In this document: positions 39,690 through 61,705 of the stretch, in pieces
Numbering within the stretch: position 1 is the first letter of the stretch
Layout of the letters: each line of letters starts with the position of its first letter
Position numbers and translations under genes: made by a program
The notes under the pieces: generated by a model
The model's input: the letters and a program-made list of their open reading frames with translations, nothing else
What the model was told of the DNA's origin: nothing
Database searches by the model: none
Assembly (NCBI GenBank): GCA_012520575.1
Contig: JAAYOB010000005.1
Coordinates: 1-64,000, forward strand
DNA length: 64,000 nucleotides
Origin: Candidatus Stramentimicrobium fermentans
Lineage (GTDB): Bacteria > Atribacterota > Phoenicimicrobiia > Phoenicimicrobiales > Stramentimicrobiaceae
Direction of reading: 5' to 3'

Positions 39690-39940
39690 GCAAGGCAAAT
39701 AAGATTAGTTGCCCTGCTGTGATCGCTAACTGAATAAGTTTTGACCCAACACTTTTCCAAAAAGGAAATTGATCTCCGGGTGTGAAATGCAAGCCTGTGG
39801 TTTTCCGAAAGGTTTGCCTAAAATTAACAGCGATGTTAATTAACTGGACGCATGAAGCATTCGGGTAAATATCCACCTGTTTGAGGGTCGGATTCAAAAC
39901 TTGTTGTTTGCGGCATAGCAGGGTTATTGTTTGTCTGTCG
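39690..39940 (+). ncRNA. ssrS: 6S RNA (regulator of RNA polymerase), upstream of 5-formyl-THF cyclo-ligase
   Basis: About 250 bases without an open frame. A long-range closing stem is visible: CCCTGCT (39712-39718) pairs with AGCAGGG (39917-39923), extended by GGCAAATAA near the start and TTATTGTTTGTC near the end. An inner stem joins ATCGCT and AGCGAT. The rod shape with an internal bubble, the length, and placement just before a YgfA homologue match 6S RNA, which often precedes ygfA. Ends are approximate, and other structured RNAs cannot be excluded. Confidence 0.68.
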
Positions 39941-50515: not shown

Positions 50516-52243
50516 ATGACGCGCTCCCTAAAAGAAAAAGGAATAACCGGTGAATTTTTACTAAATTTATTGGTCAGTAAAAAAATTATCACCAGCAAAG
50601 AGGCTGAAGAGATTTGCCGTAAACAAGGAGAAAACGGTTTACCCGTACAGAGAATAGTCCTGGATTCGGGCATTCTAAACAAAATAGAGATGATGCAATT
50701 ACTCTCCTGCGAAATTGGTATTCCGTATTTAGATTTAGAGGGCAGGACCTTTGACCCTTCTATATTGGCACTGGTCTCTGAAGAGCTTTCCCGTAAACAT
50801 AATCTGGCTACCATCGATAAAAAGAACGGCAAACTTGTGGTAGCTATGGCTAACCCTTTAGATGTCTTCGCACATGATGAGATTAGAATCCTGACCGGCT
50901 TTGATGTGGAACCCTATTTGGCTTGCAGAGAGGATATCAACAAGGTTTTAGATTCAGTCTATGGAATTACCGAAAGTTGGCAGCAGATGATAGGGGAGAT
51001 ATCGTCGCTTCCCATAGCGGCGGTAGAAGATGAAGTCGAAGATATGGAGATTACCAAAGGTATTTCAGAAAGTCACGAAGCCCCTGTTATTGCCCTGGTG
51101 AACCTTATTTTGCTTCGTGCCATTAAGGAAAGTGCCAGTGATATCCACATAGAACCGTTCGGCGATAAATCATTAAGGGTGAGATATCGCATTGACGGAA
51201 TACTGCACGATATTATGTCTCCTCCCCGCAGTTTGCATATGGCAATTATTTCGCGTGTAAAAATTATGTCCCACCTCAATATAGCCGAGAGACGTCTGCC
51301 GCAGGATGGCCGAATCAAAGTACAGGTACATGGCCGTGAAATCAATTTTCGGGTGTCCACCATTCCTGCTGTAAACGGAGAGAGTGCGGTATTAAGAATA
51401 TTAGACCCGGCTCAAATCAGATTAGATTTAAAGACACTCGGCTTTTCCAAAGATAATTTTATTAAATTCCAAGAACTCATTACCAGGCCAAATGGTATTA
51501 TTCTGGTTACCGGTCCTACCGGCAGCGGCAAGTCTACCACTTTATATGCCGTTTTAAATACCTTGAATTCTCTTGAAAAAAAGATAATGACCATAGAAGA
51601 TCCGGTAGAATACCGCTTAGACGGGATAAATCAATTACAGGCAAAACCAAAAATAGGTTTGACATTTGCTGCCGGTTTGCGTAGTTTTCTGCGTCAGGAC
51701 CCCGATATAATGTTAGTGGGAGAGATACGGGATAAAGAAACTGCTGAGATTGCTATTCAATCGGCGCTGACCGGGCATTTAGTTTTAAGCACCCTGCATA
51801 CCAATGATGCTCCCAGTTCTGTTATCAGATTGGTGGATATGGGCATTGAACCGTTTTTGATATCTTCTTCTGTGATAGGGATACTGGCACAGCGCCTGGT
51901 GCGTAAAATTTGCTCTTATTGTAAAAAAGAAGTGCCCATAACCAATGAAATAAAGAATATTTTAGGAGAATGCCATTCAGATTCAGAGAATATTAAAATA
52001 TTCCATGGTGAAGGATGCAGCCATTGTAAAAATACCGGATATAAAGGAAGAACTGCCATTTTTGAATTTATGATAGTGAATGATTGTATTCGAGAATTAA
52101 TCTATAGGAATGCCCCTCTTTCTGAAATTAGGGAGGCTGCCATTAAAGTAAATGGCATGCTTACTTTAAAAGAAGATGGTTTACAGAAAGTTATAGAAGG
52201 ATTAACTACAATGGAAGAAGTAATGCGCGCCGCTTCCGCCTGA
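50516..52243 (+). CDS. pilB: Type IV pilus assembly ATPase (second PilB)
   Basis: A 575-residue PilB/GspE ATPase: an N-terminal MshEN-like/T2SSE domain (GEFLLNLLVSKKIITSKEAE), Walker A GPTGSGKSTTLYAV, Asp box IEDPVEYRL, Walker B DIMLVGEIRDKETA and a zinc site CSYC/CSHC. It starts the pilus locus and is followed by pilC after 316 bp. It shares its core with the 42.7-kb copy but the N-terminal domains differ, so the two may respond to different signals or serve different machines. The ATG follows GAGG. Confidence 0.91.
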   Translation: MTRSLKEKGITGEFLLNLLVSKKIITSKEAEEICRKQGENGLPVQRIVLDSGILNKIEMMQLLSCEIGIPYLDLEGRTFDPSILALVSEELSRKHNLATIDKKNGKLVVAMANPLDVFAHDEIRILTGFDVEPYLACREDINKVLDSVYGITESWQQMIGEISSLPIAAVEDEVEDMEITKGISESHEAPVIALVNLILLRAIKESASDIHIEPFGDKSLRVRYRIDGILHDIMSPPRSLHMAIISRVKIMSHLNIAERRLPQDGRIKVQVHGREINFRVSTIPAVNGESAVLRILDPAQIRLDLKTLGFSKDNFIKFQELITRPNGIILVTGPTGSGKSTTLYAVLNTLNSLEKKIMTIEDPVEYRLDGINQLQAKPKIGLTFAAGLRSFLRQDPDIMLVGEIRDKETAEIAIQSALTGHLVLSTLHTNDAPSSVIRLVDMGIEPFLISSSVIGILAQRLVRKICSYCKKEVPITNEIKNILGECHSDSENIKIFHGEGCSHCKNTGYKGRTAIFEFMIVNDCIRELIYRNAPLSEIREAAIKVNGMLTLKEDGLQKVIEGLTTMEEVMRAASA

Positions 52244-52559: not shown

Positions 52560-53768
52560 ATGCCATCATATTCTTTTAAAGCTCGGGACAGTTCCGGGCG
52601 GCTTTTGTCCGGCAGTATGGAAGCAAACAGCCGGGAAGCAGCTATCGAACGGCTGCATGAAATGAGATATTTCATTGTTTCCGTGGAAGAAAAACGCAAA
52701 AGTTTGCTCTCTACCGAAATAACCATTTTCAAAACTATCACAATTCGGGATTTGGCCATCTTCTTCCGCCAATTTGCTACCATGGTTAAAGCCGGCTTAT
52801 CACTGATTAGCTGTCTGGATATATTATCAAAACAGACTGAAAATAAGCTGTTGGCTAAAAAAGTAGATGATATCAAAAAAAGTGTGGAAGGCGGTTCCAC
52901 ACTTGCCGAAGCCTTTGGCAACCACCCGGAAACTTTTTCTAAATTATATCTGAATATGATTAAAGCCGGAGAGGTCGGCGGAGTGCTCGATGATGTTCTG
53001 AATAGGATGGCTACCTTAATGGAAAAGGAATATGAGCTGCGGCAGAAAATAAAATCTGCTATGACTTATCCTTTATTTATCTTCGGTGCTGCGATGATAA
53101 TGGCAGTATTCATGCTGACCTTTATCTTACCCCAATTTGTGGGAGTATTCCAATCCTTTGGGGGAGAGCTTCCTTTTCTGACTAAAATATTAGTATTTGT
53201 CACAATGGTTTTTAACCGTTTCTGGTATATTTTCCTGGCAGCTTTTGTTCTCCTTGTTTTTGCCTACATCGGTTATAGCCGTACCCAACATGGGCATAGA
53301 AATATTGACCGCATAAAATTAAAATTACCGATTTTCGGTAATCTGTTCCTTAAAACATCCATCACTCGTTTTGCCAGGACTCTGGGCACTTTAATCCAAA
53401 ACGGTGTTCCCATTATTCAATCTTTGAAAATTTCCGCCGAATCTATCGGCAACGATATCCTTGCTGAAGCGGTAATGGAAGCATCTGACCGCATCAAAGA
53501 AGGTCAGAGCATCTCCGCACCGCTGGAAGAAAGCAAAGTATTTCCGCCCATGGTAACTCAGATGATATTAGTAGGGGAGGAGAGCGGAGGGTTAGAAACA
53601 ATGCTCTTCAATGTTGCTAACTTTTATGATCAGGAAGTGGAAAGGGCCATAGAGCAGCTGACTTCTGTAATTGAACCGATGATGATGATAGTGGTAGCCC
53701 TGGTAGTGGGTGTAATGGTTATCGCTATGTATCTGCCTATTTTCAGTATGGTGCAGCTGATACAATAA
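52560..53768 (+). CDS. pilC: Type IV pilus inner-membrane platform protein
   Basis: A 402-residue PilC/GspF protein with two T2SSF domains (about 70-195 and 270-395) and three membrane segments. The start is PSYSFKARDSSGRLLSG, with ATMVKAGLSLISCLDIL and LIQNGVPIIQSLKISAE in the domains, and GEESGGLETMLFNVA and the final hydrophobic helix near MMMIVVALVVGVMVIAMYLP. It anchors PilB and pilin assembly. GGAGGT precedes the ATG. It is followed by sigma-factor genes, an unusual pilus neighbour. Confidence 0.92.
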   Translation: MPSYSFKARDSSGRLLSGSMEANSREAAIERLHEMRYFIVSVEEKRKSLLSTEITIFKTITIRDLAIFFRQFATMVKAGLSLISCLDILSKQTENKLLAKKVDDIKKSVEGGSTLAEAFGNHPETFSKLYLNMIKAGEVGGVLDDVLNRMATLMEKEYELRQKIKSAMTYPLFIFGAAMIMAVFMLTFILPQFVGVFQSFGGELPFLTKILVFVTMVFNRFWYIFLAAFVLLVFAYIGYSRTQHGHRNIDRIKLKLPIFGNLFLKTSITRFARTLGTLIQNGVPIIQSLKISAESIGNDILAEAVMEASDRIKEGQSISAPLEESKVFPPMVTQMILVGEESGGLETMLFNVANFYDQEVERAIEQLTSVIEPMMMIVVALVVGVMVIAMYLPIFSMVQLIQ

Positions 53769-53794: not shown

Positions 53795-54325
53795 TTGGCG
53801 GCAGCAGAAATCGAAAGTAATAATTTCCAACCGAACTGTAACAGCAATAAGATTGAAGAAAATTTAGCTTTTTTAAAAGAAGTAGTGCAGGAGTTTCAAA
53901 ATTCCGGAGAGCCGGAAGAAGAACTTATGCAGGTAGGTTATATTGGACTATTAAACGCGGTTAACTTATATCAGGAACATCAGCAGGATACTTTCCAACA
54001 ATATGCCGGTAATTTAATTCGGGGAGAGATTCGTAACCATATCAGAGAAAAGAATAAGAAAGTAGATATACCGGATTGGTTATCGGTAATAATAAATAAA
54101 TTGTTGAATCAGATGCTTACTGCCTATCGGAAACAGTATAATAAATTTCCCAGTTTAGCGGAACTCTCTCAAATGCTCGAACTTTCACCGGAAATATTAA
54201 AAGAGGCCTTAAAGGCACGCAAGGCGGCAGTGGAGGTTTCTATCGACCAGCACAGAAGAAGCACTATTGACTTACAGGAGCCTCTTGATATAGTTAAAAT
54301 CAGAAAAGAAATCAATAAAAGGTAA
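53795..54325 (+). CDS. Truncated sigma-70 family protein (regions 2-3, no region 4)
   Basis: A 176-residue protein like its downstream neighbour: region 2 MQVGYIGLLNAVNLYQ and LIRGEIRNHIREKNKKVDIP, and region 3 KQYNKFPSLAELSQMLEL. It stops before region 4, the part that would read a -35 element. The promoter-melting segment FQQYAGNLI differs from FTTYATWLI in the neighbour, losing the aromatic Trp. It may be a non-functional sigma-like regulator, or a partner of the downstream sigma. The TTG start follows GAGGTG. The stop at 54325 is one base from the next start. Confidence 0.75.
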   Translation: MAAAEIESNNFQPNCNSNKIEENLAFLKEVVQEFQNSGEPEEELMQVGYIGLLNAVNLYQEHQQDTFQQYAGNLIRGEIRNHIREKNKKVDIPDWLSVIINKLLNQMLTAYRKQYNKFPSLAELSQMLELSPEILKEALKARKAAVEVSIDQHRRSTIDLQEPLDIVKIRKEINKR

Positions 54326-54326
54326 C

Positions 54327-55040
54327 ATGGAAAGTAACGATAGCATCGATTATTCGAATAGATTCAATGATGAAATTGTCAGCAAATATCAGCCCCTGGT
54401 CAGGTCAATTGCCAGAAAGTATTATAATTCAGGGGAACAGGTTGAAGATTTAGAGCAGATCGGTTATCTGGGATTACTTAATGCCCTGCAGCTCTTTAAT
54501 GAAAAAAAAGGCGTTAAATTCACTACCTATGCCACTTGGCTGATTAACGGGGAAATTCGCCATTATTTAAGGGATAAGCATGCCGTTGTCAAAATCCCTT
54601 CCTGGATCAGACAGCTTAATAGAAAAATCGACCAATATGTTGAAAAATACTATAGTGAACACAAAGAGTTCCCTTCTATGGAACAGATTGCCGATGTATT
54701 GAATATAACGGAAGAAGGTGTTCAGGAAATTTTAAAAGGCAGGAAATCAGTGCAGGTGGTTTCTTTAGATAAAAGTATCAGGGAGGATGATATTGACGCT
54801 ATCCCTTTGATAGAAAACATAAAAAGCAAAGAATACCGTTCTTTCCAATTACCCATAGAAGATACCATACATTTAAAGAATACCATAAGTAAGCTTAAAA
54901 AGATTCACAGGCAGGTAATTTATTACCTGTTCTATATGGACTTAAGCCAGACCAGGGTTGCTAAAATGTTAGGAATAACGCAAAGGCAGGTATCTCGTAT
55001 CAAAATGGAAGCTTTAGAAGAATTGCGAAAAAATATTTAA
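54327..55040 (+). CDS. Alternative sigma factor, SigB/SigF/SigG-like
   Basis: A 237-residue sigma-70 group 3 factor. Region 2 has EDLEQIGYLGLLNALQLF and VKFTTYATWLINGEIRHYLR, with the GEI-R-LRD-V-IP signature of stress/sporulation sigma factors. Region 3 contains IPSWIRQLNRKIDQYVEKY, and region 4 ends with VAKMLGITQRQVSRIKMEAL, a full HTH. It lacks the region 1.1 of RpoD. It sits between pilC and the pilin genes, whose promoters share a non-RpoD motif, so it is the likely reader of those promoters. No anti-sigma gene is seen next to it. Confidence 0.85.
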   Translation: MESNDSIDYSNRFNDEIVSKYQPLVRSIARKYYNSGEQVEDLEQIGYLGLLNALQLFNEKKGVKFTTYATWLINGEIRHYLRDKHAVVKIPSWIRQLNRKIDQYVEKYYSEHKEFPSMEQIADVLNITEEGVQEILKGRKSVQVVSLDKSIREDDIDAIPLIENIKSKEYRSFQLPIEDTIHLKNTISKLKKIHRQVIYYLFYMDLSQTRVAKMLGITQRQVSRIKMEALEELRKNI

Positions 55041-55069: not shown

Positions 55070-55531
55070 ATGTTGGGAAAAAAGATAGTAGCCAGATATA
55101 AAGACGGGAGCATTCAGAAAGGGTATACCAGCAATTTCAATCCGGACAAAGATTTTTTTCACCTTTCTTTGATTGATGAAGCAACTGAATTACCTACCGG
55201 AGAGATTGTTGAGGTCAATGTCAGTATTCTCAAGGCGGTCTTTTTTGTCAAGTCTTTTAAAGGGGACAAGGAATATATCAAAGTCAGAACCTTCGATAAA
55301 TCCCCTGCAGGTCCTCCCAGTCAGCGCAGGATTATATTGATCTTTAAAGATGGAGAAAATTTTTACGGCAGCACGCTCAGTTATTCCCCCAGGCGCAGCG
55401 GTTTTTTTGTTTTCCCCATTGATAATCAGGACAATAGTGAGAGCGTCTTTGTGCCCCAGGGTGCTCTGGAAAAAGTGCATATTAAAAAATTCGGCAGTGA
55501 AGAGTTTGATATCTATCTTTATGAAAACTAA
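55070..55531 (+). CDS. Uncharacterised protein with an internal duplication
   Basis: A 153-residue soluble protein. Two related halves are visible: VARYKDGSIQKGYTSNFNP (about residue 7) and LIFKDGENFYGSTLSYSP (about residue 88), each K-D-G...G-T/S...P and each ending in a hydrophobic F-x-L/F-P/S pattern (FFHLSLID and FFVFPID). I do not recognise an established domain, though short beta-rich PilZ-like domains are one possibility. AAAGGAG precedes the ATG. It is the only gene between the sigma factor and the first pilin, so it may belong to pilus control; this is inference. Confidence 0.6.
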   Translation: MLGKKIVARYKDGSIQKGYTSNFNPDKDFFHLSLIDEATELPTGEIVEVNVSILKAVFFVKSFKGDKEYIKVRTFDKSPAGPPSQRRIILIFKDGENFYGSTLSYSPRRSGFFVFPIDNQDNSESVFVPQGALEKVHIKKFGSEEFDIYLYEN

Positions 55532-55758: not shown

Positions 55759-55789
55759 GTCTAAAATTCTGAAAATAGGGAATAATATA
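55759..55789 (+). promoter_or_regulatory. Pilin promoter motif, copy 1
   Basis: GTCTAAAA at 55759-55766, a 12-base spacer and GGAATAATATA at 55779-55789, 66 bp before the ATG of the first pilin. The same two boxes occur before the second pilin and the first minor pilin. They do not match TTGACA/TATAAT, and resemble SigB-type GTTTAA/GGGTAT boxes. Confidence 0.7.
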
Positions 55790-55855
55790 ATATAGAAGTA
55801 AAAACCATAAATCATCATAAAAACAATAAAGTATTCAGACTTTTAGCAAAGCAAT

Positions 55856-56329
55856 ATGAGAAATATAACTGTTAAAAAAGAAGATAAAACCGAAAATAAG
55901 GTGGGGTTCACCTTAATAGAATTGATGGTTGTTGTTGCCATAATAGGCATACTCTCTTTATTTGGATTGAGAGTCTATGCCGGTTTTCAGTACAAAGCCA
56001 AAGATGCCCTGTTAAAAGGTAATGTTTCTACCATTCATACCCATATACAAACGGAATTGTCAGACGATAAGAAGAGCGCCACGGAAGTCTGGACCAATAT
56101 AGACGACATATTCCTTGCCTCCGGCATCTATTTTCCGGCAGCAGGCAATCCCCAGCAGGGCAATATTGAGGGGATATCGACAGCCGAGCCGGCATCATTA
56201 ACCGGTTTAGGCGGAAAGGTCTTTGTCTTTGTAGACAGCACTGCCGCTCCTACCAGGTTTTATGTCAATGGCGTTAATGCGGAGGAGACCGGTTTTGTCT
56301 TCCCGGAATCCTTAATTGCCCAAAAATAA
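55856..56329 (+). CDS. Type IV pilin (first)
   Basis: A 157-residue prepilin. The leader ends VG and the mature N-terminus is FTLIELMVVVAIIGILSLFG, with Glu5 conserved, so cleavage is expected between Gly and Phe. The rest is a soluble globular domain rich in beta segments. AGCAAAGC lies upstream of the ATG at 55856, without a strong ribosome-binding site. The sigma-linked promoter motif precedes it. It is a major- or minor-type pilin; this cannot be decided by sequence. Confidence 0.92.
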   Translation: MRNITVKKEDKTENKVGFTLIELMVVVAIIGILSLFGLRVYAGFQYKAKDALLKGNVSTIHTHIQTELSDDKKSATEVWTNIDDIFLASGIYFPAAGNPQQGNIEGISTAEPASLTGLGGKVFVFVDSTAAPTRFYVNGVNAEETGFVFPESLIAQK

Positions 56330-56357
56330 AAATATTTGAAAATATTTCTATCTTTAT

Positions 56358-56388
56358 GTCTAAAAAAGATATTATGTGGAATAACATA
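56358..56388 (+). promoter_or_regulatory. Pilin promoter motif, copy 2
   Basis: GTCTAAAA (56358-56365), a 12-base spacer and GGAATAACATA (56378-56388), 72 bp before the second pilin ATG. Confidence 0.7.
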
Positions 56389-56460
56389 TAATAGATACCT
56401 TAAAAGAGGAAAGAAGTACGGAAAACTATATTTATAATAAAAAAGGAGAATTTTAAAAAA

Positions 56461-56889
56461 ATGTTCATGTACTTACACAAAAACAAAAAAGGTTTTACCT
56501 TAATCGAACTGATGGTCGTAGTTGCCATTATCGGCATCCTGGCGCTGCTGGGCTTGCGTCTCTACGCCGGGCAGCAGGAAAAAGCCAAGAATGCCATTGT
56601 TAAAGCCAATGCCGGTACCATACAAACCCTGATTCAGGCCGAATTAGCTGACGCTGCTGTTGCCGACATTGATTTAGACGAAATTTTTGGTGCCGCTGGT
56701 ATATACAATCCTTATACAGGTGAGGCTCAAACAGTAAGCGGTAGCGATGAAGGAGAGGTTGGGGCTAGTTTAGGTGCATACGTTAATGACGCTAGCGGTG
56801 CAGGTGCAGAAGATAACGTTTTCTATATAAATGGTTATGGTTCTGATGGAGATTTTGTATATGGCAGAGATTTAGAAGCGCGAAAATAA
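56461..56889 (+). CDS. pilA: Type IV pilin (second, probably major)
   Basis: A 142-residue prepilin. After a basic leader KNKKG the mature start is FTLIELMVVVAIIGILALLG with Glu5. The globular part contains IDLDEIFGAAGIYNPYTGEA and is less charged than the first pilin. AAGGAG is 12 bases before the ATG. It is followed by a strong terminator, so it probably forms a monocistronic, highly expressed unit, as for a major subunit. That ranking is inferred. Confidence 0.93.
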   Translation: MFMYLHKNKKGFTLIELMVVVAIIGILALLGLRLYAGQQEKAKNAIVKANAGTIQTLIQAELADAAVADIDLDEIFGAAGIYNPYTGEAQTVSGSDEGEVGASLGAYVNDASGAGAEDNVFYINGYGSDGDFVYGRDLEARK

Positions 56890-56947
56890 GCTAATTAGCT
56901 GTCAACCATCAGCCGGGGGACGTTCTCCGGCAAAGAATTTTTCAATC

Positions 56948-56984
56948 AAGAGCCAGTCTTTTAAGACTGGCTCTTCTTCTTTTC
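56948..56984 (+). terminator. Strong intrinsic terminator after the second pilin
   Basis: AAGAGCCAGTCTT and AAGACTGGCTCTT form a 13-bp stem, followed by a T-rich run (CTTCTTTTCC). A smaller GCCGG/CCGGC hairpin lies at 56912-56931. Confidence 0.85.
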
Positions 56985-57179
56985 CTGCCTTTCCCGGCAC
57001 TCTTCTTTCTTCCGTCACCGCGATGCGGCATTATTGCCTGTAATTAGCTCTAACCGAAGACAGAAAGTCAACAAAAGTATTTCTATGGTCTATGCTTTCG
57101 CTCCCATATGTTTTTATTGTCTTTTTCAATCCGTAATGCTATTATCTTAATAGATTAAACGGTTTAGGAGGGGATAAGA

Positions 57180-57578
57180 ATGAGAATAAACAATCAGAAG
57201 GGCATTACCGTTCTTTCCTTGCTCATACTGGTGCTTATTGTCGGAGGGGGAATTCTCTATGGGCCCAAACTTTTTAACCATGTGATCGACCGGAATATAA
57301 AAAGATTGGTTACGGCCAATGCCAAATCCGTAGAGACGGAGATACGCTCCGAATTAATCAATAGACATCCCATTCAAATCTGGAATGATATGGATAAACT
57401 CATCAATGCTTTGAATTTTCAAAACCCGGTGCTTTCGGAAAGGCAGACTAAAAATGGCTGGGACCGCCCGGGTGATGTGGTAGTCTCCTTTGACGGTATC
57501 AATACTTTCCGCCTGGACGGCATAGGGCGCGACGGTTCTTCCTTCGGCCTCAATATCATAATACAAAGATCAAAATAA
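57180..57578 (+). CDS. Pilin-like protein without Glu5
   Basis: A 132-residue protein with a short leader and a hydrophobic N-terminal helix. The segment after KG is ITVLSLLILVLIVGGGI, so the position 5 that is Glu in pilins is Ser here. The downstream part (TEIRSELINRHPIQIWNDMD) resembles the first pilin (QTELSDDKKSATEVWTNIDD), which supports a pilin origin. Without Glu5 it may not pack like a normal subunit; it may be a minor or initiating pseudopilin or an anchored relic. GGAGGGG precedes the ATG. It is 34 bp from the peptidase gene. Confidence 0.7.
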   Translation: MRINNQKGITVLSLLILVLIVGGGILYGPKLFNHVIDRNIKRLVTANAKSVETEIRSELINRHPIQIWNDMDKLINALNFQNPVLSERQTKNGWDRPGDVVVSFDGINTFRLDGIGRDGSSFGLNIIIQRSK

Positions 57579-57591
57579 AACAAAAAGGATA

Positions 57592-57609
57592 GTTATCTAA
57601 TCAGATAAC
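57592..57609 (+). promoter_or_regulatory. Hairpin in the ribosome-binding region of the prepilin peptidase gene
   Basis: GTTATCT-AATC-AGATAAC lies between AAGGA (57585-57589) and the ATG at 57613. Unfolded, the 23-base spacing is too long. Folding the 18-base hairpin would bring the site within a few bases of the start, so it may be needed for, or regulate, initiation. Confidence 0.45.
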
Positions 57610-57612
57610 ATA

Positions 57613-58386
57613 ATGGTACAAATGACACAAATATTTACTACAATCATTATATTCATTATCGGTCTGGTAATCGGCAGCTTCAGCAATGTCTGCATTTACC
57701 GCCTACCCCGCAACGAATCAATCGTATTTCCCGGTTCCCATTGTCCCCGGTGCAGCTATCCCATTGAATGGCACGACAATATCCCGCTCATCAGCTATAT
57801 CATCTTAAAGGGGAAATGCCGTTCCTGCGCTGAAAAAATATCCCTGCAATACCCTTTGGTAGAGTTTTTAACCGCCTCACTTTATCTGTTTTTATTCTAT
57901 TTCTATGGATTGCAATTACGCACCGTTGTTTATATGGTATTCTGTTCCGCTTTAGTAATAATCGCTTTCATCGATTTGAAAGAAAAGATTATTCCCGATG
58001 TTATCTCTCTTCCCTTAACCGCCCTCGGCTTTCTATCGAGTTTTGTCTTAAAAAACATCTCACCTTTAAACTCTCTGCTCGGCATTCTGGCGGGAGGGGG
58101 AAGCTTGTATTTAATAGCTATAGCCGGCACCTATATATTCAGGAAAGAAGCCATGGGCGGAGGGGATATCAAATTATCCGCCATGGTCGGTGCTTTTTTA
58201 GGATGGCAGCTCGCCCTGCTTTCGCTCTTTATAGGATTCTTGCTGGGCTCTGTAATCGGTATAATTGTTCTGATGAAAACGAAAGGAGAAATCAGGGATG
58301 TTCCCTTTGGACCATTCATTGCCTTAGGTACCCTGATTGCTCTCTTCTTTGGTCAAGGCATACTCGATTGGTATTTTCTGCTTTGA
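57613..58386 (+). CDS. pilD: Type IV prepilin peptidase/N-methyltransferase
   Basis: A 257-residue polytopic protein. The N-terminal methyltransferase domain has GSFSNVCIYRLPR and CPRCSYPIEWHDNIPL with a CRSC pair (zinc-type tetracysteine), and the peptidase half has the catalytic Asp residues in AFIDLKEKIIPD and GGGDIKLSAMVGAFLGW. It cleaves and methylates the prepilins encoded around it. The ATG at 57613 has a hairpin between it and its likely ribosome-binding site. Confidence 0.93.
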   Translation: MVQMTQIFTTIIIFIIGLVIGSFSNVCIYRLPRNESIVFPGSHCPRCSYPIEWHDNIPLISYIILKGKCRSCAEKISLQYPLVEFLTASLYLFLFYFYGLQLRTVVYMVFCSALVIIAFIDLKEKIIPDVISLPLTALGFLSSFVLKNISPLNSLLGILAGGGSLYLIAIAGTYIFRKEAMGGGDIKLSAMVGAFLGWQLALLSLFIGFLLGSVIGIIVLMKTKGEIRDVPFGPFIALGTLIALFFGQGILDWYFLL

Positions 58387-58622
58387 CTTGTTTTCTTAGC
58401 TCCATTTAAACAAAATGTAAAGAAAATCTTCTAACAAATCAATATCAATGTATCAGATCAGCTTAAATGAAAACCAAATTCGGCACGGCATAATTTAGAA
58501 GCAGAAGAATTTCTTAAGATAGAATAAAAAGTATCTCATAATCTAATAAGAGCAATTCACTATTTTAAAACCTTCCTAATATTAAAAAAAATTATTTCCA
58601 ATCATTATATTGTATCTGTTTT
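58387..58622 (+). other. Gene-free spacer upstream of the minor-pilin operon
   Basis: About 240 bp of AT-rich sequence between pilD and the next promoter. No gene, hairpin or known repeat is evident. Confidence 0.6.
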
Positions 58623-58654
58623 GTCTAAAATTTGTTATAATATGGAATAATATA
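58623..58654 (+). promoter_or_regulatory. Pilin promoter motif, copy 3, minor-pilin operon
   Basis: GTCTAAAA (58623-58630), a 13-base spacer and GGAATAATATA (58644-58654), 41 bp before the ATG at 58696. It is identical to copy 1 in both boxes. Confidence 0.7.
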
Positions 58655-58695: not shown

Positions 58696-59178
58696 ATGAA
58701 ATACCATTATGAAAGGTGTAATAGCGCTAAATCGAACCGCGGATTTACCCTGATTGAATTAATGGTTGTAGTCGGAATAATTGCGGTGCTGTTAACAGTT
58801 ACAGGAAGGGCTCTTTTTATCGTAAAACAGAACCACGACCTGAACATTACGGCTCGTCAAATAGAGGCAGCTCTGAAAGATTGTCAGGCCAGTGCTTTTT
58901 ATAGCGGAAGCTGGTATAAGGTTTACTTCTGGCCATCTATAAACCGATACCGGGTTTATCGGGGAGCGGGTGAAGTGGTGAAGGATGTCCAGTTGGAAAA
59001 CATAAAACTGCACCACACCAATTTTATAGACCACAGAGTTGACTTTTATAGTACCGGTATACCCAGTATGGGCGGTACTGTAACTTTAAAAAATAAAAAC
59101 GGGAAGACATTATATGTTATCATGACACCGGTGACCGCCAGGACGAGAGTAAGCACAGAACCGCCGGATAATTGGTAG
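58696..59178 (+). CDS. Minor pilin, GspH/FimT-like
   Basis: A 160-residue prepilin: SNRG then FTLIELMVVVGIIAVLLTV, with Glu5. The globular part with QIEAALKDCQASAFYSG is typical of GspH/FimT minor pilins, which help start the fibre. It is the first gene of the minor-pilin cluster and has the shared promoter motif. Confidence 0.88.
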   Translation: MKYHYERCNSAKSNRGFTLIELMVVVGIIAVLLTVTGRALFIVKQNHDLNITARQIEAALKDCQASAFYSGSWYKVYFWPSINRYRVYRGAGEVVKDVQLENIKLHHTNFIDHRVDFYSTGIPSMGGTVTLKNKNGKTLYVIMTPVTARTRVSTEPPDNW

Positions 59179-59308: not shown

Positions 59309-61705
59309 ATGCTAAGAATAAAAAGAATATTAACCCAAAGTCCCAAGGGTATGACCTTAATTGAACTGATGATAGCAGTCTTCATTTTGGCTTTAGTTGC
59401 AATGGGGCTATTTCGGGGATTTACCGTCGCCTTTCAAGCTATGGCAGATGCTAAAGACCGTACCATGGCCACCAACTATGCCCAGCAAATATTGGAGAGT
59501 TATAAAAACACCCCTTTTGAAAAAATTCTGCCTTCTTCCGGCTCTATAGAAGGGACTAAATTCTTTAAAAATGTAAGTGTTAATCAAATCGATGAAAGTT
59601 TGAAAAAGGTTATTACTAGAATCTCTTGGGCAGATAGGAATAGTGATGATGCTGATAAAAGAGTAGTGGTAGAAACTTCCATTGCTGATACCCGGGTAAC
59701 TGCTCAGGAAAATGCAACTCCGGCGGGAATTATTATTTATGCCAGTTCCTATAATTTATTGCCGGGGAACGATCCTGAAAACCGCGACAGGCCATCTCAT
59801 ATTTGGGCAAAAATTGTAGACGAGCATGGTAATTTGATTATCGATTGGGATGAAGAGAAGGTATTATTTACGATTGAATCAGAAGTCGGACTAGATAATG
59901 AGCCGGTGTATGATACACTTGGCGGCTTTACTCCGGCATATTTTAATGAATTATTATCAGATATAAGAGACGGTGTGGCAGAAACAGATTTTTATCAATA
60001 TCAAGCTGAAGAAAGGCAAGGTTATGTTACTATTAAAGCCAGTTTAACTGTAGGAGCCGAAGAATTATACGATACCTTAAGGCTGAAAATTACCAATGAA
60101 GCTGTTGCTGTTGTCTTGTCTTCTGAAGGTAATAAGCATATTATCAGTACAGAAGGCGGAGAAGAAGGAATAGCGCATCTGATTGCTAAAATCGTAGATG
60201 CCGCCGGGGATATAGTCACTACTGAAAATAGACCGGTTACTTTTGAAATAATTTCCGGACCGGAAACATCAAGTCTGATAAACATGATACCTACTGAAAA
60301 CGGTATAGCCAAAATAGATTTAAAAGCCGGTTCCCTGACCGGCAGTAACACGGTATTGGCAATGCTCATTCCCCTGGAACCGGGAAGCATCACTATTCAG
60401 GTTGTTGACCCCGGAATTCATAATTTTAAAATTGTAGCTCCTGCCCCTAATACAAAAATTGCCCAACTGGGCTCTGTTGAAATAGTTGCCCGGCTGACAG
60501 ATTATTTAGGCGAACCTATATCCGGTAATATAATTAACTTTGCAATTGAAGACGGTTCGCATTTGGGAAGTATATCTCGAAGTAGCGATACAACAGGGGA
60601 AGCCGGTAATGCAACTACCGAGTTAACTATGAATTATGCAGGCACGGCAACTATCAAGGCCTATTGGATTGATGAAGAAAATAATGAGATTTATGATACT
60701 ATTCAAATTGTCTGCGGAAATCATTGGTTATATGTTGAAGCTGACCCTTTGAACGTCTATGAAGGCCATTCATCAACTATCAGGGCAGCGCTGACCAACG
60801 TATTTGGTGCCCCTGTGCCTTCTCAATATATCAATTTCAGTGTTAAAGAGGGAGATGCCACATTATCTCCGCTCAGTGCTTTGACCGATGAGGAGGGAAT
60901 TGCAACTGTCACACTTACTGCGAATGAGCCCGGGGACATTATTGTCAGGGCAGAATGGCAAGAAGACCTGCAAAACGTTTTTGGGGAGGTTGAGGTATCG
61001 TGCATAAATGCCCCGATTTATCAGGTACAGCTCAGTGCCCCAAAGACTACAATTTCTGCGGGTGAATCATTAGAGCTTACTGCTGCCGTAACCGAAAATG
61101 GCAATCCTGTTAATGGTATCACCGTAACTTTTACCGTTTCCGGCTCTGCTGATGCCAAACTTGATAACCAAGCACCCTCAATAAGTAAAGATACTGATGA
61201 AGATGGAATTGCAACTGTTACTTTAAGCGGATTGAATCCTGGTGAATCGGCTACGATAACTGCAGAAGCAGGAGATAGCAGTGATAGTATCACAATCAGC
61301 TGCGAAGTACCGGAAATAGCAATTAGGCTGAATCCCGCTTACAATCCAAGACTTCAAGGTAATAAACAAGTTTATTTTGGTATAATTGTAGAAAATGATG
61401 ACATTAATCTAAATAAAATGAAAATATCATGGAGTCCGGCGTCAAATGAAGGATTAAAAGAAGTGTGGATTGACGATACGCAGGTTTATTTAAGTGGTAT
61501 ATCTGGAGGCTCTGCAAATGGAACCGAGATCAGTTTCAATGTAGCTCCATATTCATACCAATTAGAAAAAGATAGAAGTTACGTAATTAAAATGGTTTTT
61601 ATAGTAAATGGTAATATGAAAAAGAAACATTGGAACATAGAATTTTTTAATCCGGAAAACAATGCACCCATTGTTCCGGCGATTGAGTTTTATTTAAAAG
61701 GATAA
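59309..61705 (+). CDS. Large minor pilin with Ig-like (Big-1 type) repeats, putative tip adhesin
   Basis: A 798-residue protein. The prepilin start SPKG-MTLIELMIAVFILAL keeps Glu5. After the pilin-like first 135 residues come about five repeated beta-domains (roughly 140-265, 268-366, 368-470, 472-567, 568-668), each with a core like GIATVTLTANEPGDIIVRAE or GIATVTLSGLNPGESATITA, the Big-1/invasin style. The last 130 residues form a separate domain. The architecture suggests an extended tip subunit that contacts surfaces or partners. GGGAGG precedes the ATG. Confidence 0.82.
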   Translation: MLRIKRILTQSPKGMTLIELMIAVFILALVAMGLFRGFTVAFQAMADAKDRTMATNYAQQILESYKNTPFEKILPSSGSIEGTKFFKNVSVNQIDESLKKVITRISWADRNSDDADKRVVVETSIADTRVTAQENATPAGIIIYASSYNLLPGNDPENRDRPSHIWAKIVDEHGNLIIDWDEEKVLFTIESEVGLDNEPVYDTLGGFTPAYFNELLSDIRDGVAETDFYQYQAEERQGYVTIKASLTVGAEELYDTLRLKITNEAVAVVLSSEGNKHIISTEGGEEGIAHLIAKIVDAAGDIVTTENRPVTFEIISGPETSSLINMIPTENGIAKIDLKAGSLTGSNTVLAMLIPLEPGSITIQVVDPGIHNFKIVAPAPNTKIAQLGSVEIVARLTDYLGEPISGNIINFAIEDGSHLGSISRSSDTTGEAGNATTELTMNYAGTATIKAYWIDEENNEIYDTIQIVCGNHWLYVEADPLNVYEGHSSTIRAALTNVFGAPVPSQYINFSVKEGDATLSPLSALTDEEGIATVTLTANEPGDIIVRAEWQEDLQNVFGEVEVSCINAPIYQVQLSAPKTTISAGESLELTAAVTENGNPVNGITVTFTVSGSADAKLDNQAPSISKDTDEDGIATVTLSGLNPGESATITAEAGDSSDSITISCEVPEIAIRLNPAYNPRLQGNKQVYFGIIVENDDINLNKMKISWSPASNEGLKEVWIDDTQVYLSGISGGSANGTEISFNVAPYSYQLEKDRSYVIKMVFIVNGNMKKKHWNIEFFNPENNAPIVPAIEFYLKG

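Follow-up and report, generated by a model that had tools for sequence, protein, structure and literature searches.

The 64,000 bp stretch of DNA analysed here (the window) contained three copies of a two-box motif, each directly 5′ of a pilin gene, and this motif is probably the core promoter of an alternative sigma factor of the SigB/SigF class; the likeliest candidate is the one whose gene lies between pilC and the pilin genes (Table 1). Across the order to which this genome belongs (phylum Atribacterota; own assembly 1.58 Mb, 98% complete), the motif appeared to mark a wider surface-lifestyle programme that goes beyond pili.

Both strands of the window were searched with the pattern GTCTAAAA-N11..14-GGAATAAYATA. 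This gave exactly three matches, all on the forward strand, and none beyond the three sites of Table 1; 100 shuffled windows contained no match (0 expected by chance). The original prediction had placed the motif before three pilins, with no other copy in the window and with spacers of N12 or N13, and this held: the spacers up to GGAATAAYATA were 12, 12 and 13 nucleotides. As circularity was to be avoided, a weight matrix was trained only on 59 sites of other genomes. With this matrix, site 1 scored 29.8 bits, site 2 26.9 bits and site 3 27.9 bits; the next best position in the window scored 9.0 and 30 simulated windows never rose above 21.1. The boxes were alike among the copies while the flanks and spacers varied, again as predicted. 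A dispersed repeat, a recent duplication of the pilin upstream regions or chance could be proposed as the origin of the copies, and two of the pilin genes are indeed paralogues. However, the spacers and flanks were unlike between copies and the motif also stood before unrelated genes in many genera; with no match in the shuffles and just three sites found by the relatives' matrix, such an origin was scarcely credible and was discarded.

The three ORFs behind the sites carried the prepilin N-methylation signature (PF07963), and an orthologue of the pilin gene behind site 2 also lay behind the motif in several relatives. The pilB, pilC, sigma and DUF6982 genes probably form one operon. When the DUF6982 protein was considered as a PilZ-like c-di-GMP receptor, a fold search gave weak Sm/Hfq/Tudor-like matches (best Z 4.4), and its model suggested two small Sm/Tudor-like barrels, on weak matches. 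An ORF at 59309–61705 encoded a 798-aa protein with a prepilin N-terminus and invasin/Big_1 Ig-like domains, which is unusually large for a pilin-like protein. Elsewhere in the window, a 6S RNA (RF00013, 79 bits) was found at 39708–39928.

Table 1. Features of the pilus cluster and motif-linked genes elsewhere in the genome. Positions are those of the window unless a genome and contig are given.
Feature	Position	Strand	Remarks
pilB	50516-52243	+	
pilC	52560-53768	+	
Truncated sigma paralogue	53795-54325	+	TTG start; regions 2 and 3, no region 4; immediately 5′ of the full sigma gene
Full SigB/F/G-like sigma factor	54327-55040	+	Sigma-70 regions 2, 3 and 4; proposed reader of the motif
DUF6982 protein (PF22478)	55070-55531	+	Adjoins the sigma gene in covered relatives, 1-2 copies
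Promoter-like site 1	55759-55789	+	-35 GTCTAA 55759-55764; 13-nt spacer; -10 GGGAAT 55778-55783
Type IV pilin-like gene	55856-56329	+	Behind site 1
Promoter-like site 2	56358-56388	+	GTCTAA 56358-56363; TGGAAT 56377-56382
Major-pilin-like gene	56461-56889	+	Behind site 2; MFMYLxKNKKGFTLIELMVVVAII
Prepilin peptidase (PilD)	57613-58386	+	Without a motif of its own
Promoter-like site 3	58623-58654	+	GTCTAA 58623-58628; TGGAAT 58643-58648; 14-nt spacer
First minor pilin, GspH/ComGD-like	58696-59178	+	Behind site 3; heads the minor-pilin run to 63784
SIR2-family gene behind motif	G000:C33:11664-11694 (L100)		Without riboswitch; also L103, L111, L120, L135
Third SigB/F-like gene	G000:C34:3935-4132 (L005, L101)		Behind motif and c-di-GMP-I riboswitch

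The anatomy of the motif was derived from 62 sites with supporting context, which gave the consensus T-GTCTAAAA-N-T(A)GGGAATAAT; in short form, the order-wide consensus is GTCTAAAA-N-TAGGGAATA with a spacer of 13 or 14. Not imposed by the search were a T three bases before GG (62/62 sites), a G immediately before GG (89% of sites, giving GGGAAT) and a spacer to GGAATA of solely 14 or 15, which are two of the five permitted values. With GGGAAT taken as the −10 box, the spacer becomes 13 or 14. The published SigB promoter consensus is GTTTAA-N12-14-GGGA/TAA/T (PMC8346170; also PMC9847131), and the −10 box and spacing of the motif fitted the SigB-class form, GGG(A/T)A(A/T) at a spacer of 12–14. 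Its −35 box, GTCTAA, has one mismatch to GTTTAA; this box was imposed by the search pattern and confirmed by its context. Within the window the −10 box was GGGAAT once and TGGAAT twice. The likeness to SigB-class elements that had been claimed for the boxes was supported when GTCTAA-N13/14-GGGAAT was set against the PMC8346170 consensus. The importance of spacing was controlled with an N11 pattern, one base too short, which gave four matches (control level); with the right spacer, N12, the true sites were found again together with one weak match.

The boxes could also be the operator of a DNA-binding activator or repressor acting over ordinary RpoD promoters, given that the AT-rich surroundings supply RpoD-like hexamers and that TATAAT occurs within the spacer of site 3. 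They do not form an inverted repeat, however, and combine a fixed spacer of 13/14 with a SigB-like form on the strand of the downstream gene, and in sister families the corresponding position before riboswitches is taken by a sigma28 promoter; an operator is therefore very improbable. The sequence evidence supports the reading first proposed, a common non-housekeeping promoter, from which transcription at site 1 is predicted to start near 55790.

The presence of a full SigB/SigF-like factor just upstream of the pilin genes was also confirmed, its product matching PF04542, PF04539 and PF04545 above their cut-offs. The best family was SigB/SigF/SigG (TIGR02980) at 194.4 bits, below the curated cut-off of 234.35, and on these profile matches the protein is SigBFG-like and not a certified member of TIGR02980; the PRK07408 SigF model was its second-best match. 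No RsbW/SpoIIAB-type anti-sigma gene was found among the ORFs adjoining the sigma gene. Strong orthologues were present in 16 of the 24 genomes from this order (families f1 and f2) and in none of the 25 genomes of families f4–f7; a full orthologue was not detected in 8 of the 24 genomes of the order, which are partly incomplete. Riboswitch-linked motifs were found together with no detected full orthologue in G005, G007, G012, G017, G020 and G023, and as the completeness of these six genomes is 63–90%, gaps are a possible, if unproven, explanation. A genome of the same genus (G004) has the sigma pair but showed no motif match and no riboswitch. Among relatives whose contigs cover the locus, the full sigma gene was followed by DUF6982 genes and, on contigs extending far enough, by the motif and pilin genes, an order preserved across genera.

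A search of the whole genome returned five exact matches, namely the three pilin sites and single sites in front of a SIR2 gene (contig C33) and a third SigB/F-like gene (contig C34). The reversed pattern, used as a control, gave none. A relaxed pattern added one promoter-like site (contig C16), 5′ of a large lipoprotein gene with InlB-type repeats; relaxed matches on contigs C1, C21 and C50 were discarded as promoters, since they lay inside genes or over a start codon. Of the promoter-like sites in this genome, half (3/6) precede pilins and the other half the SIR2, lipoprotein and sigma-like genes. Both confident c-di-GMP-I riboswitches of the genome were directly behind the C34 and C16 sites; a third riboswitch match was weak, at a contig end and without the motif. 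A SIR2-family gene stood behind the motif in five genomes of the family.

Within the order, the two-box pattern matched 93 times in the 24 genomes, and the other 37 genomes gave matches at control level only. In 53 of these 93 cases a c-di-GMP-I riboswitch followed on the same strand at ≤450 bp, and in none did it precede the motif or lie on the opposite strand; by a rough estimate, <1 such pair is expected by chance. The 45 riboswitches without the exact motif split cleanly, with three carrying a strong variant (score >20) and the rest scoring <7. Many unlinked matches preceded pilins, and others SIR2 genes (the five genomes above) and a DUF805 protein. Most sites in relatives stood 5′ of genes other than pilins, and a c-di-GMP-I riboswitch usually separated the promoter from the gene; the genes behind relatives' sites encoded C39-like lipoproteases, repeat lipoproteins, a transglutaminase-like protein, HD-GYP proteins and a GGDEF-HD protein. 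Further members in the order were adhesins, c-di-GMP enzymes and degenerate sigma paralogues. The order motif-riboswitch-pilin was seen in family f2. The RF01051 aptamer was not found in the leaders of the three window pilins, which are too short for it; it was present between promoter and gene in two other regulon members of the same genome and in the f2 pilins. The regulon had been described as pilus-dedicated, which, given half of the sites in this genome and most of those in relatives, is too narrow because it holds lipoproteases, adhesins, c-di-GMP enzymes and sigma paralogues.

The sister families differed in both factor and promoter. FliA/WhiG (TIGR02479) was above cut-off in 22 of the 25 genomes of f4–f7 and in none of the 24 genomes of the order. 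A sigma28 system was defined as a FliA/WhiG factor with TAAA-N15-GCCGATA promoters; in the order, neither such a factor above cut-off nor a sigma28 site before a riboswitch was found. TAAA-N-CCGATA occurred upstream of riboswitches in 13/16 fetched regions of f4–f7 versus 0/45 in the order, and a stricter sigma28 form, 12–75 bp before the riboswitch, in 19/38 versus 0/112. Loci L245 and L247, among other f4–f7 loci, had sigma28-type promoters 5′ of c-di-GMP-I riboswitches. The sigma28 motif of f4–f7 also preceded a flagellin and FlgM-like, PilT-like and pilin ORFs, the latter three named from their sequence only. No flagellin was found in any of the 24 genomes of the order, but several sister genomes with FliA lacked it too. 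Promoter type thus tracked sigma type across the phylum, and it is mainly from this covariation that we infer the SigBFG-like factor as reader of the motif; together with conservation in relatives, it favours the earlier suggestion that the neighbouring factor is the likely reader. As the riboswitch genes of the sister families have sigma28 promoters and FliA/WhiG is present there, a change of sigma factor appears to have taken place in the regulon, presumably in this order.

The genome encodes seven region-2 proteins, including other alternative sigma factors, and the motif might be read by one of these (the third SigB/F-like paralogue or another small sigma), with the neighbouring factor there by coincidence or as part of a cascade. 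The motif persists in some genomes in which no full orthologue was detected, and in G007 the riboswitch-linked paralogue stands alone. However, in the riboswitch-linked paralogues region 2.4 is changed and region 4 (4.2) is degenerate or truncated, which makes them unlikely readers of a strict two-box promoter; the motif has the SigB-class form and, in relatives with a covered locus, pilin motifs adjoin the sigma gene. Another reader is accordingly unlikely, and the full factor of the pilus cluster is preferred.

Seven f1 genomes had the third paralogue behind motif and riboswitch; in the genome studied here, its frame ended inside region 4 and stops were present in the extended alignment. The truncated paralogue of the pilus cluster occupied the same place and had the same end in seven genomes of f1; f2 genomes with two copies had a full-length gene there. 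Pairwise dN/dS values of both paralogues were mostly 0.05–0.25 (0.47 in one close pair), with dS saturated in many pairs, and are consistent with purifying selection on both. As a proposal only, the two might act on the full factor as modulators or contend with it for core RNA polymerase. In a distant genome (L194, G053:C8), a 437-aa ORF appeared by eye to join a SigB/F-like sigma to a degenerate GGDEF domain. In a joint reading, on which we are evenly divided, the Atribacterota surface/pilus regulon with c-di-GMP-I riboswitches exchanged its sigma factor (sigma28 versus SigB-type), apparently in step with the absence of FliA and flagellin, and the f1 factor was joined by two paralogues, derived from sigma factors but without DNA-reading parts, that may be competitors or modulators; one of the two would be gated by a promoter and riboswitch of its own.

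Under the proposed mechanism, some signal would switch the full factor on and RNA polymerase carrying it would start at GTCTAA/GGGAAT promoters, the core promoter consisting of −35 GTCTAA, a spacer of 13/14 and an extended −10 TAGGGAATA. The factor, encoded in the pilB-pilC-sigma-DUF6982 cluster, would transcribe the two pilins and the minor-pilin run; elsewhere in its own genome it would transcribe the genes for the large lipoprotein, the third sigma-like protein and the SIR2 protein, and in relatives those for C39-like lipoproteases, adhesins and c-di-GMP enzymes. At many promoters the nascent leader would bind c-di-GMP and the gene would be expressed or not; as the riboswitch follows the start site, output would depend on the sigma factor as well as on a suitable c-di-GMP level. 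The c-di-GMP enzymes inside the regulon would feed back. We infer here which sigma factor binds, where transcription starts, what the riboswitches do and in which direction the sigma factor was switched.

The open-access papers searched yielded no description of such a regulon in Atribacterota, of a SigB-type promoter combined with a c-di-GMP-I riboswitch or of a sigma exchange within one phylum. For this largely uncultured phylum, the analysis sets out a regulon that can be put to the test, with defined promoter sequences and a specific candidate reader, in which an alternative sigma factor would be coupled to c-di-GMP riboswitches gene by gene. It also offers a natural example, bearing on network rewiring, in which riboswitches and some target types would have been kept while promoters and sigma factor were exchanged.

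Several known systems share parts of this arrangement. SigB promoters of Bacillus and Streptomyces have the same two-box form and spacing (PMC8346170, PMC9847131) but target general stress genes, whereas here surface and pilus genes follow a −35 GTCTAA and a strongly fixed extended −10. In cyanobacteria (Synechocystis pilA1; Nostoc pilA), group-3 SigF directly drives the major pilin promoter (PMC2758279; PMC6495340), which likewise pairs a SigB/F/G-class factor with a pilin promoter and agrees with the PRK07408 match. The relevant portions of these papers describe no c-di-GMP riboswitch layer for SigF and a tiny SigF regulon in Nostoc; here many surface genes are riboswitch-led and, unlike the cyanobacterial gene as presented there, the sigma gene is inside the pilus cluster. 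The FliA regulon of Bdellovibrio is a sigma28 surface programme alongside the c-di-GMP riboswitch RNA merRNA (PMC3627812). Its promoters are of the sigma28 type and its one RNA has no ORF, in contrast to the SigB-type promoters and dozens of riboswitch-led genes found here; the sister families of Atribacterota do resemble the Bdellovibrio arrangement. In Clostridioides difficile, c-di-GMP riboswitches precede pilA1 and the flgB-sigD operon (PMC6200980), so that, as here, a riboswitch stands ahead of a major pilin and ahead of a sigma gene. The passages of that paper on these riboswitches describe no link to a SigB-type promoter, whereas in this order promoter class and riboswitch are systematically combined.
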